Assembly (NCBI GenBank): GCA_036874045.1
Contig: CM072335.1
Span: 392,001 to 456,000 of the forward strand
Length of the DNA stretch: 64,000 nt
Direction: 5' to 3'
Origin: Cymodocea nodosa
Lineage: Eukaryota > Streptophyta > Magnoliopsida > Alismatales > Cymodoceaceae
In this document: positions 16,877 through 48,604 of the stretch, piece after piece
How the letters are laid out: each line of letters begins with the position of its first letter
Position numbering within the stretch: position 1 is the first letter of the stretch
The notes under the pieces: model-generated
The model's input: the letters and a program-made list of their open reading frames with translations, nothing else
The model's database searches: none
Told to the model about the DNA's origin: nothing
Program-made: the position numbers and the translations under genes

Positions 16877-19800
16877 ATGGCGGAGGGAGGAGGAGGAGGA
16901 GGAGGAGGAGGTGGTGGTGGGAAGAGGAGGAAGCTGACGGTGGAGGTCTGCAACGCGAGGAACTTGATGCCCAAGGACGGGCAGGGGACTGCCAGCGCGT
17001 ACGTGATCGTGGACTTCGACGGGCAGAGGAGGAGGACCATGACCAAGTTTCGCGACCTCAACCCACAGTGGGACGAGAAGCTCGAGTTCTTGGTGCATGA
17101 TCCGGACGCCATGCCGTTCGAGACGCTCGAGATCAACGTCTACAACGACAAGAAGAGTGGGAAGAGGACGACTTTCCTAGGGAAGGTGAGGATTTCCGGA
17201 GTCACCTTCGCCAAGGCGGGGACGGAGGCGTTGGTGTACTATCCGCTGGAGAAGAGGAGTGTGTTCTCGCAGATTAAGGGGGAGATTGGGCTGAAGGTTT
17301 GGTTTGTCGATGAGACTACTACTACTGATGGTGGTGGTAGTGTTCAGGAAGCGGCTGAGAAGAAGGCGGAGGCGAAGGTGGTGGAGGAGAAGAAAGGGGA
17401 GGTGAAGAAACCAGAAGGAGGTGAGAGATGGAGAACAGTTTTGCCTCTGAGCAGTTTTTCTTCAGATTTTATTTCGTGCGGGAAAAAGATTGCTTCTTTT
17501 TTTTTCCTTTGACATGTCTTCTGGACAGGGAAAGAGGAGAAGCCGGAGGAAGAGAAGGCGAAGGAGGACGGGAAGAAAAAGAAGAAGGAGGAAGATGGCG
17601 CCAAGGAAGAGAAAACGAAGCCAGAGGAGAAGGCGAAAGGGGAGATTACACCGGAAAAGTCGAAGAAGGAAGCGAAGGAGAAAGAAGCAGCGGCAGTTCT
17701 CGCGCCGCCAGAGCCGGTGTTGGCAGTTTCCTCGCCGGCAAAGGTTTCGATGAATAGAACAGGGGAGCTGGAGGTAAGGACGCAGTGGGAAGGAGATCGC
17801 ACCGGCAACTCCTACGATCTCGTCGAGAAGATTCCTTACCTGTTCGTGAGGCTTCTCAAGGCTAAGCGGTCGGAGTCGGACCGGTCGGTGTTCGCGAAGG
17901 TGTCGATTGGGACGTACAGTGTGAGGACCAGGACCGTGCAGAACAACTCCGACTGGGACCAAGTGTTCGCATTCCACAAGGCGAGCCTGAACTCGACGGC
18001 GCTTGACGTTTCGGTGTGGGTGGAGAAGAAGAAGAAGAATGTGAAGAAGGAGGACGAGGCAGAGGAGACGGAGGCGGCCGACTCGTGTCTTGGAGTCGTG
18101 TCGTTCGACCTACAGGAGATCCCGAAGCGATCGCCGCCCGATAGCCCGCTGGCACCGCAATGGTACACTTTGGACGGGGAGAATTCGGCAACGGAGGATG
18201 TCATGCTGGCCACTTGGGTTGGGACGCAGGTGGACGAGGCCTTCCCAGAGGCGTGGCAGTCGGACTCCGGCGGATACAACTCCCACACAAGATCCAAGTT
18301 TTATCTTTCTCCCAAGTTATGGTACCTGAGAGCAACAATCTTACAAACGCAAGACCTCCGATTCGCAGCGGCAGGGACGACCCGAGAGCTCTCCGTCAAG
18401 GCCCAGCTTGGCCCGCAGATTTTCAAGACGGCGAAGCCGGTACCGGCGACGAGTTCCAATGGCAGCACGGCGTGGAACGAGGATCTGGTGTTCGTCGCGG
18501 CGGAACCGTTCGATCCTTTCCTTCTCATAACCGTGGAGGACTCGGGGAAACCAGTGGGCCACGCCAAGGTGCACGTCTCCGGGATTCACCGTTGGACGGA
18601 CGATCGGTCGGAGCCGCCTTCTCGTTGGTTTAATCTAGCTACGGACGACACGGCCCGGCCCTACGCCGGGAGGATTCACGTCCGCGTCTGCCTGGAAGGC
18701 GGCTACCATGTGCTGGACGAGGCGGCACACGTGACGAGCGATGTGCGAGCGGCATCGACGCAATTATCGAAGCCACCGGTGGGGATTCTGGAGGTTGCCA
18801 TCCGCGGAGCCACGGGTCTCCTTCCCGCGAAGCCGACCGCGACGGATGGCTCCTCCGGCGGGACGACCGATGCGTACGCCGTGCTCAAGTATGGCCCCAA
18901 GTGGGCGCGAACTCGCACTCTCATAGACCAATTCAATCCACGATGGAACGAACAGTACGCGTGGGATGTGTTCGACCCTTGCACCGTCCTCACCGTCGGC
19001 GTCTTCGACAACGGGAGGCACACCGGGAAGCCACAAGCAAGGGACGCCCGCATCGGAAAGGTCCGGATTCGACTCTCGACGCTCGATACCGACAGAGTCT
19101 ACCTCAATTCCTACGCTCTTACGCTGGTCCAACCCTCCGGCGCCAAGAAGATGGGAGAGATCGAGCTGGCAATCCGCTTCACCTGCCCATCTTGGATGAA
19201 TCTGATCCAGTCCTATGGCTCCCCGTTGCTGCCCAGGATGCACTACCTCCGCCCTCTCGGCCTGGCTCAGCAGGACTTGCTCCGCCACACTGCGATGAGG
19301 ATCGTTTCGTCGCGGCTCGCACGGTCCGAGCCACCTCTTGGCCCGGAAGTGGTGCACTACCTGCTCGACACCGATGCTCACGCGTGGAGCATGCGGAGGA
19401 GCAAGGCCAATTGGTTCCGGGTGGTAGGGTGTTTGTCGTCCCTCGTCGGAATCGCGAAGTGGGTGCATTCCGTTCGGACGTGGCAGCAGCCGACGACCAC
19501 CGTTCTGGTCCATTTGCTCCTGGCGGCCGTCGTTTTCTGCCCCTACCTCCTCCTCCCCACAGTCTTCATGTACCTGTTCTTGATACTCATGTGGAGATAT
19601 CACCTGCGGCCCAGAGCGCCCGCCGTGGCCATGGACCCGAGGCTTTCCTGTGTTGAGTTAGTCGGATCCGACGAGCTCGACGAGGAATTCGACACGTACC
19701 CAAGCAGCCGATCGGCGGACGAAGTGAGAGCACGGTACGACAAACTCCGCGCGTTGGCGGGGAGAGCACAGTCGCTCCTCGGGGACGTGGCGGCGCAGGG

Positions 19801-20026
19801 AGAGAGAGTGGAAGCACTGATGGGCTGGAGGGACCCGAGGGCCACCGGCATCTTCGTAACATTCTGCCTAATCGCGGCGGTCGTCTTCTACGTGGTGCCA
19901 TTGCCCATCATGCTGCTGGCCATCGCAATGTACTACCTCCGCCATCCCAGGTTCCGTGGCGAATTGCCGCCGCCTCCCGTCAACTTCTTCCGCCGGCTAC
20001 CGTCGCTCGCCGACCGGATCCTTTAG
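16877..20026 (+). CDS. Multiple C2 domain and transmembrane region protein (MCTP, QUIRKY/MCTP15-16-like)
   Basis: Two exons, 16877-17420 and 17529-20026, 1013 aa. After an acidic/poly-Gly start, C2A (about 17-135) reads KLTVEVCNARNLMPKDGQGT and keeps aspartates typical of calcium loops. A Lys/Glu-rich linker (about 150-235) holds the only intron (108 bp). C2B starts near 285, C2C near 444 and C2D near 599. The C-terminal PRT_C region has the GSPLLPRMHYLRPL signature and two hydrophobic blocks (about 838-872 and 956-990), ending VNFFRRLPSLADRIL as in the family. MCTPs are ER proteins that tether ER to plasma membrane, notably at plasmodesmata; QUIRKY and FTIP members act in tissue patterning and florigen transport. 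Which subclade this belongs to is not certain. A polyadenylation signal follows the stop. Confidence 0.93.
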
Positions 20027-21538: not shown

Positions 21539-29509
<7,971 letters not shown>

Positions 29510-36739: not shown

Positions 36740-37620
36740 GACAAAGGGAAGGTCATGTACAGACCATTTAAGTTGAACGACTTCCACCAGAATTCTGGGC
36801 AGAAAAGAGCAGACTCCCAACAAGCAGGCAGGATATCGTCATGATCGGTGTACGGGTCAGCAATGGAATTTTCAACAATGCTATCAGGAATTTTCTTGCT
36901 TCCTTCGTGGATGATGGCCTGCCTTGTACTCTACCGTACGCATCATTCTAGAATTAATCGCAAAATCAAGAAAGCTTGCCATCTGCATCTTGCAACATTT
37001 GTGTCGCCTGTCACGAGATTGCGGAAAGCTGGTGTTTGTTTTTTTTTTGGAGTAATAATCATCCATGATTATACCAGAGAAACAGTTAAACAAATGTGAA
37101 GATGTTGTCAAGATTCGTCTGTTCATCTCCACTATTCCCAGATGAAGCTTCAAACCCATTTATTGCTCTACCAACATTAGCTATCTTTTGCCAATATCAA
37201 GTAAAAAAATGTTTTTCCAATATTATGTAATAAGAGGATGTCTTTAAGATTAAAAGAAAAAATTTGTATTACTATTATTCATCCGGTTGCGGTTTATGAT
37301 TCAAGATCCTAGACTAGAAGTGTCATCATGTGTAAAAAGTTCATGATAATAATTTTATCAGAAATAATACAATTTCATAAATTCTCGGTGACATGGTTTT
37401 GTGAAGTATGATACATGTAGAAATATGTTAATATATAAAAAAATTTAATTAATAAAAATAAATCAATTTATGCAAATAACGATATTCGTATTTTTTTTTT
37501 TTAAAGTTATTTAAACATTTTTAAAATATAAAGAAGGTAAAAAATACTATTATTCTGTAAAGAAGGCATTTTTAAAAATCTCACGAGAAAAGAGAGAGAG
37601 AGAGAGAGAGCACGTACGCT
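36740..37620. other. 3' flank of the NusB-domain gene and AT-rich spacer
   Basis: Likely 3' UTR up to about 37150, then AT-rich spacer, then a (GA)n run at about 37592-37611. No gene seen. Confidence 0.5.
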
Positions 37621-37635
37621 GGCGATGAAGTTTGA

Positions 37636-37670
37636 AAACCCTAACGTTGTTTGCAACACATCTATTTAAG
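37636..37670 (+). promoter_or_regulatory. Telo-box and TATA-like element upstream of the snoRNA genes
   Basis: AAACCCTAA (37636-37644) and TATTTAA (37664-37670) lie about 470 bp before the first snoRNA, with an inverted telo-box (CTAGGGTTT) near 37701-37709. Telo-boxes are typical of plant ribosomal-protein and snoRNA promoters. Assignment to the snoRNAs is by proximity; no protein-coding frame follows. Confidence 0.45.
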
Positions 37671-38136
37671 CCGAACCCTCGCCGCAGCCTGCCTTCGCCG
37701 CTAGGGTTTGTGGAACGTGGCCTTCCCTTTCGTCTCTCGGTGATAGGGTGGTGCCTCCGCCGTCGTCTCTGCTCTTTCCCTCGATCCCTACGCTCTATGA
37801 TACTGGTTTTTCCGCTTCGTTTCCACCGTTTGGCTTCTCTCGTTTGTCGATCGGGTAGCATCCAGCCTTTGCTCCTGGTTTTCATCGTGTTCTGATTTTG
37901 ATTCGTGCTTCGTTCGATGCCTATATTGCAATTCACTGTAGCTGGATTTGCTTCGAGCAAATCCCGTGTGCTGCAAGGAATCTATCGTTAGGCAACATGC
38001 AAAACCTTCTGCCTTCAGCTCTGATGATCCTCTTCTTTCTCGATCTACGTAGGATTTTTCGGTGACGAGGTAGATACATATTTTAGTATGTTCTTGTATG
38101 TTTTCTCTTACCTTTGCTTATATTCCGCGGCGTCTT

Positions 38137-38223
38137 CGATGTGGATGATGAAAAAAATTCATTCGGATTCCCATTGATTTTTTCGTAAAACATGATATAC
38201 AACCAGCTACTTCTGACACATCG
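38137..38223 (+). ncRNA. C/D-box snoRNA candidate, guide to 25S rRNA (snR72-like site)
   Basis: Box C ATGATGA (38145-38151) and box D CTGA (38213-38216) are bracketed by a perfect 7-bp terminal stem, CGATGTG (38137-38143) with CACATCG (38217-38223). Directly upstream of box D lies AACCAGCTACT (38201-38211), complementary to the 25S rRNA stretch AGTAGCTGGTT as I recall it (in ..CTAGTAGCTGGTTCCCTCC..). The box D + 5 rule would put 2'-O-methylation on the A of AGTA, the site methylated in yeast by snR72. A possible C' (ATGATAT) lies near 38192. Structure is seen directly; the target is from memory. Confidence 0.8.
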
Positions 38224-38344
38224 CTTCATCCCAGACGCTTCACTTCTCTCTTTTGGTTTGCTGGTCTTGAATCCTTTGACGTGTTGGGCGGCAGGGATGG
38301 TTTTTGTTATTCTCTGTAATATCGGTTGGTTTTATTTACGTTTG

Positions 38345-38426
38345 GGGCCAGTGATGTGAGAATAATATTTGCTACTCTTGATGGGAACGCTCATCTGATG
38401 AACATCCACCAAGATCTCTGAGGCTC
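38345..38426 (+). ncRNA. C/D-box snoRNA candidate with two guides to adjacent 25S rRNA sites (U18/snR58-like region)
   Basis: Box C GTGATGT (38351-38357, one mismatch to RTGATGA), C' CTGATGA (38395-38401) and box D CTGA (38418-38421) are enclosed by a 5-bp terminal stem GGGCC (38345-38349) with GGCTC (38422-38426). CCACCAAGATCT (38406-38417), abutting box D, is complementary to 25S AGATCTTGGTGG. AATATTTGCTACT (38364-38376), before the weak D' region, is complementary to AGTAGCAAATATT, which follows immediately in the same 25S stretch as I recall it. The D+5 rule points to the C of AGATC. A short T-rich tract follows. Confidence 0.8.
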
Positions 38427-38639
38427 TTTTCCTTTTCTTTTCTTCTTTATATTTCATCAACTTTACATTCCATTTTAGGAGAGATTCGTATACGTGTAAT
38501 TAGACGGAAAGAAAAAAAAAAATCGTTTAATTTCGCGAAGAAGTTTGTGAATAAGTGAATTTCGTTTGTATGTTTGTCATCTCTTAATTGTATGTTTTCT
38601 TTTGCGAAAGATTACTAGAGAGAGAGAGAGAGAGATGAT
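38427..38639. other. Spacer after the snoRNAs; (GA)n at 38618-38634
   Basis: T-rich then mixed sequence without a further box C/D pair that I can support. It ends in a GA microsatellite. Confidence 0.4.
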
Positions 38640-38805
38640 TTTTTTAATTATTTTAATTTATTATTTAAAAATTAATTCTATTTAATTTTGTTACGTGTAT
38701 AAATATTTGAATTTTAATTTTTGTAAAATTTTTGAATTTTAAATTATCTTATCAAATTTTGTTAATATTTAAATTCTACAGAATTTAAATTTAAATTTAT
38801 TTTAG
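38640..38805 (+). mobile_element. Truncated, decayed third copy of the 1 kb TIR-type element (right part)
   Basis: The order of words TTAAAAATTAATTCTATTTAA, then GTGTATAAATATTTGAATTT, then ATTTAAATTCTACAGAATTTAAAT matches the right end of the elements at 2434-3431 and 50179-51198, but with many changes and no terminal CAAACAGG. Confidence 0.5.
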
Positions 38806-39636
38806 TGGTAATTATTTTTCTATCTTTAATTACTCTAATTGTTATTTTATTTCTACTAAAATCGTGTCTTTTGTAATATTATCATCTATCCTTCGTGCTT
38901 TCTATTTAACATTCTAACTCGAATGCAATGTCAAGGGGATCTTTGTCAGGATCGAAAGTCAAATGCAATCATTGCGTTATGGCTCTCGTGCGCGTTTGCT
39001 TTCTCAATTTTTTTTGGCCAGAAATGTTTCATCGTCCTCACAATCTATGGGAAGGTTTGCTTCTGAGAATTAATTATTATTTAAAATTCCATATTTCTAG
39101 AATTCTTAAAAAAAATTTATGATACTCGGCAACATTAGAACTGCCGTGACGGAGCAACTATAAGAGAAATAATATGAAATGAAGACACGGACACTTATTC
39201 CCATTAGTCAAGTAACAGGACACCACTCAAACAAAGTAACAGAGAAGCTGCGGGCGGTGCATTTATCGGCGTTCGATTTTTACCTACCCTGAAAGTAATT
39301 TTGAATTGAATGTGATTTAGTAGAGGAAGGTGCAATCAATCTTATCATATACCATGATCTCGATTAGAGTTGATACAAAAAAAGAAACCATTATCAAAGA
39401 AAATGAAGAGGATTTCAATGCTCGTAAGCAACCGAGTAAATTGATTTTGAGAGCAAATGAAACTTTTAAGCACCATCGGTTGATCGAGGGCAAGTACGAC
39501 AAAGAATAAATAGTTTGGAAACAAGTGAACGGCTTTCATGCATCATTCCCATCGGACGAAGGAATAAATTCACGAAATAGAAGGCCTCTTGCTACTTCTA
39601 TTTGTACTCTTAAATTCACGAAAGTATCCTGTCAAC

Positions 39637-42313: not shown

Positions 42314-42319
42314 GTAAAT

Positions 42320-42392
42320 TCCATTGCCGGGATTTGAACCCGGGTCGCCTGGGTGAAAGCCAGGTATCCTAACCGGACTAGACGACAATGGA
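42320..42392 (-). tRNA. tRNA-Glu (anticodon UUC)
   Basis: 73 nt, minus strand. The acceptor stem TCCATTG pairs with CAATGGA. The A box TCTAGTCCGG and B box GGTTCAAATCC are intact. The anticodon stem-loop CCTGG-CTTTCAC-CCAGG carries TTC. No intron is present, and a T7 terminator follows. It looks functional. Confidence 0.96.
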
Positions 42393-44393: not shown

Positions 44394-47300
44394 TCAACAG
44401 CCCTTCGAGACACCATTAGCAAAACCATTGGCAACGCCATTAGCGATACCATTTGTAAGAATCCGCTTATCAGGTACCGTTTTCACGACCTTCGCAGCCT
44501 CCACAGAAGCTTTAACCACATCACCTTGATCGGTTAGTTTGTTCTCGGTTTCCTTGTTCAGAACAGAAGTTACTTCCAACGGTTTCTGTATTCTTGCCTT
44601 CATAATCCCGTCCTTGTCCACAACCGTGGCACCCGTTACCTTTCCATCCCATCCCTGCGAGAAAGAAATTGGCATCAGAAATTTGAATTCTCCTACAAGC
44701 GTGTAAATTAAACATTGAATTCTCCACTCGAATAAACATGCCTCTTTCTGGAACTGTTGCTTCGCTCTTTTCTCTTGCATGGCCTTCTGCCGTGTCTCAT
44801 AGAACCCGAAATCATCAAGTATGTTTGTCTTGCTAACATAATCCTTAAATATTTTGAGTAGTTGAATACCCTGATCAAATTTCACCTGCAGCAAGCAACA
44901 CAACAAAAATCAATAACGAAAACAGTACTTGTACCAAAACAAGGTTCTTCTTTACCACCAACCTCTTGAGTGTCTCTGCTATTTGTCACTGGTTTATTAT
45001 CATTGTTCTCAAGTGTAACGTGCTTAAGCGCACTGTTGGGTACATCCTTCACAATGTGCCACTTGACAGGAAAGCAACCATTCCACTTAGGCTGTTGCCA
45101 GTAATCTACAGTTTTATTGAAATCAACAGGCCCCACCATCTCAGCGACACCAACGAATTGCCCACTGGTGTTCACCTGAAAAGTTCGTAGATGTATTCCA
45201 CCGCTAAGCAACAATGCAAGATGAATGCTATATTATAGCAACTTAAAGAATCTCATTAGTGATACATACAGAGAAAAGTAAAAAAACAGAACAGTTTGAT
45301 TTCTCCTGAGCTTCCTGGTATCCAGCATCAAGCTTCTTGTTTCCATTGGGTGTACTGGCCCAAACGCCATACTTGACACTCTTATGAACGTCATCCTCGC
45401 TGTAAGATTTAATAACATAAAATTTTGCATCAGGGTATTTCTCAGGGAAATCTGCTCGGTTGTATTGCTCCCTGTCAGGAACCAAACTAGAATCATCAGT
45501 ACTGGTGTTTGAAGGGAGGCTCTGTCCTTTGACAGCAATAACAACGTTAGGCCCCAAAATCTTTGGATTATTCTTCAAGCGACCTGACCGTGGACCTCTG
45601 TTCAACTCATTCAAATGATCCATGTTTTCATTTCCATAACCAAGGAATCCATTACCACGTCCTCTAGGTCTATACTTGCCATCCATGGCAAGCCAGTTAC
45701 GTCCATTTGCTCTGGAATCATAACCATTTGTTAAGAAACCCTGACCAGTTCTAAATGGACTGGGACATTGCCCATACAATCGACTGTTTGGGTACATCCT
45801 ATTCATATATCCTGGACCAGCTGGACCCATTCCTGAAGGTGGACCAGGAGGGTGCAAACCCTGCAACCAAAAAATAATTAAACAAAGCATATAGGTCAAA
45901 GATGCGATTTAAAACATGGCATTCTATTCATGTTAGAAAGGCATTCAGTAGGGCAGCACAACACGCTTGAATGCATTGATGCCTACTACCATAGGAACCA
46001 AAAAACAAATTTTGAAAAAAAAAAATGTAAGGATGAGGGTAATCCATTTACCATTGGAAGAGGATGGAGGTTCTGGTTTCTCGCTGAAGAGATATTACTT
46101 GCATGTGTAGCAGACGTTGAGACACTGCTCGTTGCAACTGGTCTGTGATGCCAATCAGGTACACCATGGCCATCTATCCATGGGCCAGGTGATCCATATC
46201 TAGGAACCTGATAAGCAGACGTAAAACCACCAGGTAAAGTATTTCTACCATCAGATGACAAGGATGAATTCTTCGGGTTTGCCTTGACAGTAGCTGGTTC
46301 ATTTTTCCCATTTGAATTCGCTATTCCATTGGAGTTGGATTTTGCAATATCTACACCTAACGGTGCTGGGTCAGAAGTGACAGATGTGGTGTTTTCACCT
46401 TGCGACGTAGGAGGTTGGGAAGGTGCATGTACTGAACTTGCTGGCACAGGTGGTGTGTAGTACGCCCCTGGATATGCATAATGCTGAGGACCATACAAGT
46501 GCCCATCTTGTCCCACAGTTGGAACTTGTGAAACAGGAGGGTATGCACCAAATGGAGCATAACCATATCCTGGGTACGCATCCCCATAAACACCCTGTCA
46601 AAACAAGAATTTATTGGAACACAGAAATTTATTCTGAATGCATACGAAAGACTAAACAGGAAGTTGGAAAGGAAACCTAAAGCGTGATTTTCAAATATAT
46701 GCATCAAATGCAATCTTTACATGGAGATGTATTTGCCAACCATACAATATAAGCTAAATCAAAATAATCCATGGTTGGTGAAGAAGTACTGAAAACATGA
46801 TTTTCAATTCATCAAGAGTATATTAGCCGTTAGACATTTACAAAGCAATCCAAACAACAAATCCATCCATATTCAACGAAACATCAATGATAATGCATTG
46901 TGCAGATCACACCCAAGAGGAACTGAAACCAAACACAAGAAACATCCAAAAAAATTTTACGTACATGAGCTTCCTAAAAGCTAGACAATAAGTAAGAATC
47001 TAAGATTGATTTAAGATTAAAAAATAATGTGGTAACTTATAAAATCTCTGCAACGTAACGTCAAGCAATAACTGTGACCTCTTTCCTTCAATTTCAGTAG
47101 AAAAATTTTGATATGAAAAACACAAACTTACATGAGACATGTCCACTCCGTCAGGGCTCAGATATCGTGGAAAGTCCTCCCACTCATTCAAAGAACCTTC
47201 ATAGCCTGAAGGTCCAACAAGACAATAGTGTCATCAGATTGCATCAACGTAAAAGTTCGGCATAACTAACAAGATGTCAATAATGACGGGAAAGAGTTCG

Positions 47301-48260: not shown

Positions 48261-48604
48261 CTAGGGTTTGCCGGGGGAGGGTGGGAGGGAGCTGTTCCTC
48301 CGACGAGATGTTGATATCGGTCCCGGGTGGGAGAGGGGGAGGGAACAGATCCGGCGCCTCTGGGTTGGGAGTTGGGGAAGAAAACCCTCTCGGAACCCTA
48401 GAAAACCCTAGATTTGGAGAGGCAGAAGATGGAAGCGGGGGGGGTCAGGAGGCGGAGTGAACGCCGCCGCAACGAAAGAGGGGTTTTGAGGATGAGAGAG
48501 CGGTGATTCAAATAGGGGTTTTCCGAAAAGTCCGGATATTTTTGTTTATTTAACGAAATGGTCCTTTCGAATGCCATGACAAGGTGCCTTAAGTCAAACC
48601 CTAA
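48261..48604 (-). promoter_or_regulatory. Leader/promoter of the YTH gene with telo-box motifs
   Basis: Telo-box cores occur several times: CTAGGGTTT at 48261-48269, AAACCCTA at 48403-48410 and AAACCCTAA at 48596-48604 (plus-strand reading). Such motifs mark genes of the translation and RNA machinery. No TATA box is clear. Confidence 0.45.

Follow-up and report, generated by a model that had tools for sequence, protein, structure and literature searches.

The 64-kb window analyzed here, the whole 64,000-nucleotide stretch from 392,001 to 456,000 of Cymodocea nodosa contig CM072335.1 (assembly GCA_036874045.1), carries a pair of box C/D snoRNA genes on its forward strand (Table 1). The downstream member is almost certainly the U24 (SNORD24) gene of the plant snoR12–U24 cluster. 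Its match to RF00069, the Rfam covariance model of the U24 family, runs from 38346 to 38425, spans the model at full length (positions 1 to 76 of 76) and scores 56.5 bits, compared to a gathering score of 41. The corresponding E values were 3.1e-07 when the whole window was scanned and 1.1e-08 in a local scan, and the Rfam consensus is matched through both guide cores. The upstream member, snoR12, lies on the same strand at a distance of 124 nt, and this arrangement identifies the pair as the known plant snoR12–U24 cluster, conserved and described as "cluster 19" (PMC5122169). Both snoRNAs are also reported from tomato (PMC7762058). The family assignment is supported by the full-length Rfam match above the gathering score, the pairing of the guides with rRNA, the spacing of the sites that they select and the presence of snoR12 upstream. 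A protein-coding host was also sought, and no ORF of 60 or more amino acids overlaps 38139–38426.

Table 1. Features of the snoR12–U24 locus of C. nodosa (window coordinates)
Feature	Position	Strand	Basis or remark
Telo-box AAACCCTA, putative element of the snoR12–U24 promoter	37636–37643	+	Motif scan
TATTTAA, TATA-like, between the two Telo-boxes	37663–37669	+	Motif scan; weak, putative role
Second Telo-box	37702–37709	−	Motif scan
snoR12 box C/D snoRNA	38139–38221	+	RF00204, 82.7 bits (gathering score 39)
U24 (SNORD24) box C/D snoRNA gene	38345–38426	+	RF00069, full-length model match
Terminal stem, 5′ half, GGGCC	38345–38349	+	Pairs with GGCTC at 38422–38426, one G-U; MFE and centroid folds
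Box C, GTGATGT	38351–38357	+	Motif scan; Rfam consensus here AUGAUGU
D′ guide AATATTTGCTACT	38364–38376	+	Complementary to LSU rRNA AGTAGCAAATATT
Box D′, TTGA (38378–38381) or five-nucleotide box CTTGA	38377–38381	+	Motif scan
Candidate D′–C′ hairpin, 6 bp, AACG loop	38380–38395	+	Fold of 38376–38401 alone
Box C′, CTGATGA	38395–38401	+	Read from the sequence; inner CTGA listed by motif scan
D guide CCACCAAGATCT	38406–38417	+	Complementary to LSU rRNA AGATCTTGGTGG
Box D, CTGA	38418–38421	+	Motif scan

Boxes C, D′, C′ and D are present in order within the U24 gene, which is closed by a terminal stem of 5 bp in the fold of the whole RNA. The D′ guide (13 nt) and the D guide (12 nt) each have one exact occurrence in the window when both strands are searched. 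A C/D snoRNA with precisely these two guides had been read here by eye in the first-pass annotation, and the RF00069 match bears out that reading and its coordinates. The gene departs from consensus in two places: box C ends in T, and the D′ box is degenerate (TTGA, not CTGA). The D′ box can also be read as five nucleotides, CTTGA, by analogy with the CUCGA box of snR13 (PMC5389607). The candidate hairpin between D′ and C′ reached −6.1 kcal/mol, with a z score of −2.24, when 38376–38401 was folded alone; it is perhaps stem II of an internal C′/D′ motif. When the entire U24 RNA is folded, the minimum-energy structure lacks this hairpin, and that structure, calculated for the lone strand, is not unusual (z 0.57).

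The two box departures, together with the G-U pair in the terminal stem, might be read as signs that the U24 gene has decayed or fallen silent while retaining its guides. Against such decay, none of the boxes is missing, the two guides and the terminal stem are retained, and box C is close to the Rfam consensus. Moreover, no second U24 emerged from the 374.6-Mb assembly, where the DNA search and the Rfam family search each returned one (a lower bound), and the adjoining snoR12 is high-scoring and likewise the sole copy found there (family-model search, also a lower bound). We therefore consider decay very improbable.

Searches of the C. nodosa assembly for its own 25S target, either exact with a flexible gap or with up to three mismatches, gave no matches; the nuclear rDNA of the species is probably unassembled. 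Guide pairing was checked on rRNA contigs of other origin. Six contigs, one viral and five titled as bacterial MAGs, were selected by a 25- or 23-nt rRNA motif; selection by the target motif means that they reveal the identity of the target and are uninformative on its conservation. Rfam detects eukaryotic LSU rRNA on five of the six (L005 and L007–L010). The remaining contig, L006, contains the rRNA motif but gave no Rfam match, and it is kept separate from the confirmed five. As a side observation, the records of L007–L010, which are titled bacterial MAGs and bear eukaryotic LSU rRNA, look contaminated.

On all six motif-selected contigs, the D guide forms 12 Watson–Crick pairs with AGATCTTGGTGG. 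For the D′ guide and its target AGTAGCAAATATT, the count is 13 pairs on four contigs (L005, L007, L008 and L009) and 11 on the other two (L006 and L010). A single nucleotide, T, separates the two targets on the rRNA, and the first-pass claim that the guides match neighboring LSU sites holds on these contigs. The D+5 position, G38413, lies opposite a target C, while the D′+5 position, T38373, lies opposite an A and the D′+6 position, C38372, opposite a G (six of six contigs in each case). The target A and G sit 12 and 13 nt downstream of the target C, which is the spacing of the yeast sites 1437/1449/1450 and of the Arabidopsis sites 1447/1459/1460. The first-pass annotation had anticipated two cytidines as the methylated residues. 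The D-guide target is indeed a cytidine, but for the D′ guide the D+5 rule selects an adenosine, with a guanosine adjacent.

PMC8053127 attributes yeast C1437 to the D guide of U24 and both A1449 and G1450 to its D′ guide, and it lists Arabidopsis C1447, A1459 and G1460 under U24. The same source reports two Arabidopsis mutants blocking U24.2 expression, in which methylation was reduced at all three sites (n = 1 each); the assignment of G1460 draws support from these mutants. SnoR12.2 of the U24.2 cluster and its target A945 were also affected in these mutants; Arabidopsis SnoR12 is assigned there to 25S A945 and A2127. A U24.1 mutant, in which neither U24.1 expression nor methylation was lowered, is uninformative. 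The first-pass annotation had assigned the yeast sites to two different snoRNAs, U18/snR18 and snR58, and had recommended comparison with Arabidopsis and rice U18 and snoR58. That assignment was wrong, as U24 alone guides C1437, A1449 and G1450 in yeast (PMC8053127; PMC9045821). Since yeast itself has one dual-guide U24, the surprise of a dual guide disappears. In Arabidopsis, U18 and SnoR58Y are tabulated at A661 and C675/U676, a different 25S region (PMC8053127). A U18/snR58 identity was rejected because no such family appears in the Rfam listings and the published sites lie elsewhere in 25S, both guides here pairing within the U24 target region; no match to a U18/snR58-type family was obtained at gathering score in the window or at E ≤ 2 in 37000–39400.

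The U24 genes of Arabidopsis, rice and tomato were compared with ours through the Rfam model and published papers, not by direct alignment. Plant U24 (Arabidopsis U24.1 and U24.2, cluster 19 and tomato) agrees with our gene in Rfam family, in having snoR12 upstream on the same strand, in both guides and in the three nucleotides predicted as targets. Copy number differs, with one U24 and one snoR12 found here (both lower bounds), whereas Arabidopsis has two U24 variants, one of 83 nt and one of 94 nt (PMC7464842). Yeast U24 (snR24) resembles the C. nodosa gene in that a single snoRNA serves C1437 through its D guide and both A1449 and G1450 through its D′ guide. Its C′/D′ motif deviates from consensus, as do those of yeast snoRNAs with two-site D′ targeting (PMC5389607), and the D′ box here is likewise degenerate (TTGA/CTTGA). 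When the yeast U24 C′/D′ motif was moved into an artificial snoRNA, only position 6 was methylated rather than two sites, so double targeting is not explained by this motif alone; the same paper adds that U24 in human may likewise act on several positions of a target region. Yeast U24 is intronic (PMC9045821), whereas the C. nodosa gene sits in an apparent two-snoRNA cluster.

According to PMC2780460, dual-function U24 is conserved in budding yeast, Arabidopsis and rice. In contrast, the U24-type snoRNAs of Schizosaccharomyces pombe, Neurospora, human and mouse address the same rRNA region with the guides split over two snoRNAs, namely U24 and U24b in S. pombe, CD50 and CD51 in Neurospora, and U24 and U76 in the human column. 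The Neurospora 26S sites, Cm1418 and Am1430, are 12 apart. Orthologs that keep only one guide, which the first-pass annotation had named as evidence against its reading, are seen in part outside plants. Arabidopsis U24, by contrast, serves both sites (PMC8053127), and the Rfam consensus, to which the C. nodosa gene conforms in both guide cores, does not bear out the loss of a guide either.

A second alternative is that the RNA is chiefly a bridge that holds or folds its 25S region and methylates it only secondarily. The targets of the two guides are separated by a single nucleotide, and U24 is among six Arabidopsis dual-guide snoRNAs, with sites 11–18 nt apart, that are proposed to bind simultaneously (PMC8053127). 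In addition, single-molecule data from yeast show concerted modification of the three U24 sites (PMC9045821). The evidence at this locus, however, does not separate holding from methylation, and the guides are reported on two RNAs each in S. pombe, Neurospora, human and mouse (PMC2780460), so one bridging RNA is not needed in every eukaryote. We thus regard a primarily bridging role as highly unlikely. Acting as a methylation guide, U24 may nevertheless engage both sites at once. The first-pass suggestion that one RNA could hold the two is reasonable and, for Arabidopsis U24, already published.

The guide sequences were also evaluated against a chance model of 60 first-order Markov strands of 64 kb, simulated with the base statistics of the window and searched with the 11-nt guide cores at up to one mismatch. 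The simulated strands yielded 103 and 28 single matches to the two cores and no ordered pair within 80 nt; the real window contains one ordered pair on the plus strand and none on the minus strand. Among IMG/VR viral contigs, one (L003) carries both exact cores in order. Lacking any Rfam match at gathering score, L003 was rejected as a U24 relative and attributed to chance; in a collection of this great size, such guide-core pairs do, then, occur by coincidence. For the C. nodosa locus, the empty simulations, the boxes in register, the E value of the whole-window scan and the neighboring snoR12 make chance complementarity in ordinary intergenic DNA vanishingly improbable. A blastn search of 38100–38450 against plasmids returned nothing, as expected for a plant gene.

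Upstream of the U24 cluster, the block formed by the two Telo-boxes and the TATTTAA motif (37636–37709) lies ∼430–500 nt from snoR12. The rule reported for plant polycistronic snoRNA genes is an upstream promoter with a Telo-box and a Site II element (PMC4660826). Here, two Telo-boxes (at 37636 and 37702) are accompanied by no Site II element, TGGGCY, on either strand in the range scanned, 37400–38500, a possible difference from the plant snoR12–U24 cluster. Telo-box octamers (AAACCCTA) occur at nine sites in the window, compared to 2.65 expected, and none of 100 shuffles reached nine; three of the nine sites fall at 48262–48603. The cluster leader also contains a stable hairpin at 37930–37985 on the plus strand, with the core GGATTTGC/GCAAATCC and z scores of about −2.6 in two folds. 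A further snoRNA was sought at this hairpin, with no Rfam match up to an E value of 2.

Elsewhere in the window there are 20 ORFs of at least 150 amino acids. Seven were searched against Pfam and four of these seven matched; the matches, C2/PRT_C, kinase and YTH domains among them, agree with a plant nuclear origin. In a GC-rich region at 16877–20026 (plus strand), two ORFs encode a protein that combines a C2 domain with PRT_C, the plant phosphoribosyltransferase C-terminal domain. On the minus strand are an ORF with a partial protein kinase domain (25363–26298), a tRNA gene (42319–42392; RF00005, 62.8 bits) and an ORF in which a YTH (YT521-B-like) domain begins (45243–45899), which is probably one exon of a longer gene.

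Taken with what is known from Arabidopsis and yeast, the locus suggests the following pathway. The precursor would most likely be a Pol II transcript from the putative Telo-box promoter near 37640, and this one transcript would be trimmed to snoR12 and U24, with U24 assembling with the usual C/D proteins. The D guide would then direct 2′-O-methylation of the cytidine equivalent to yeast C1437 and Arabidopsis C1447. The D′ guide would direct methylation of the adenosine equivalent to A1449/A1459 and probably of the neighboring guanosine, G1450/G1460, such that U24 is predicted, by analogy, to methylate a C, an A and probably a G in this species. If the CTTGA box works like the D′ box of snR13, which also has five nucleotides, it may give two registers. 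A more far-reaching model, which we advance tentatively and consider somewhat doubtful, is that plant U24 clamps both targets in one binding event and methylates the three nucleotides processively, with CTTGA giving the two registers, so that, near the peptide exit tunnel, it would also serve transiently as a folding clamp.

A single processive binding event has been discussed as a possibility for yeast U24, and the question of whether its three sites are methylated in one such event was already posed in that system, independently of this locus (PMC9045821). The dual guide, the snoR12–U24 cluster and the bridging idea are likewise already published, and what is new is only the copy in C. nodosa. 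The locus therefore adds one plant to the well-described U24 family and matters little as a discovery. It is useful as a positive control for by-eye reading, being a true snoRNA whose coordinates and guides were read correctly.
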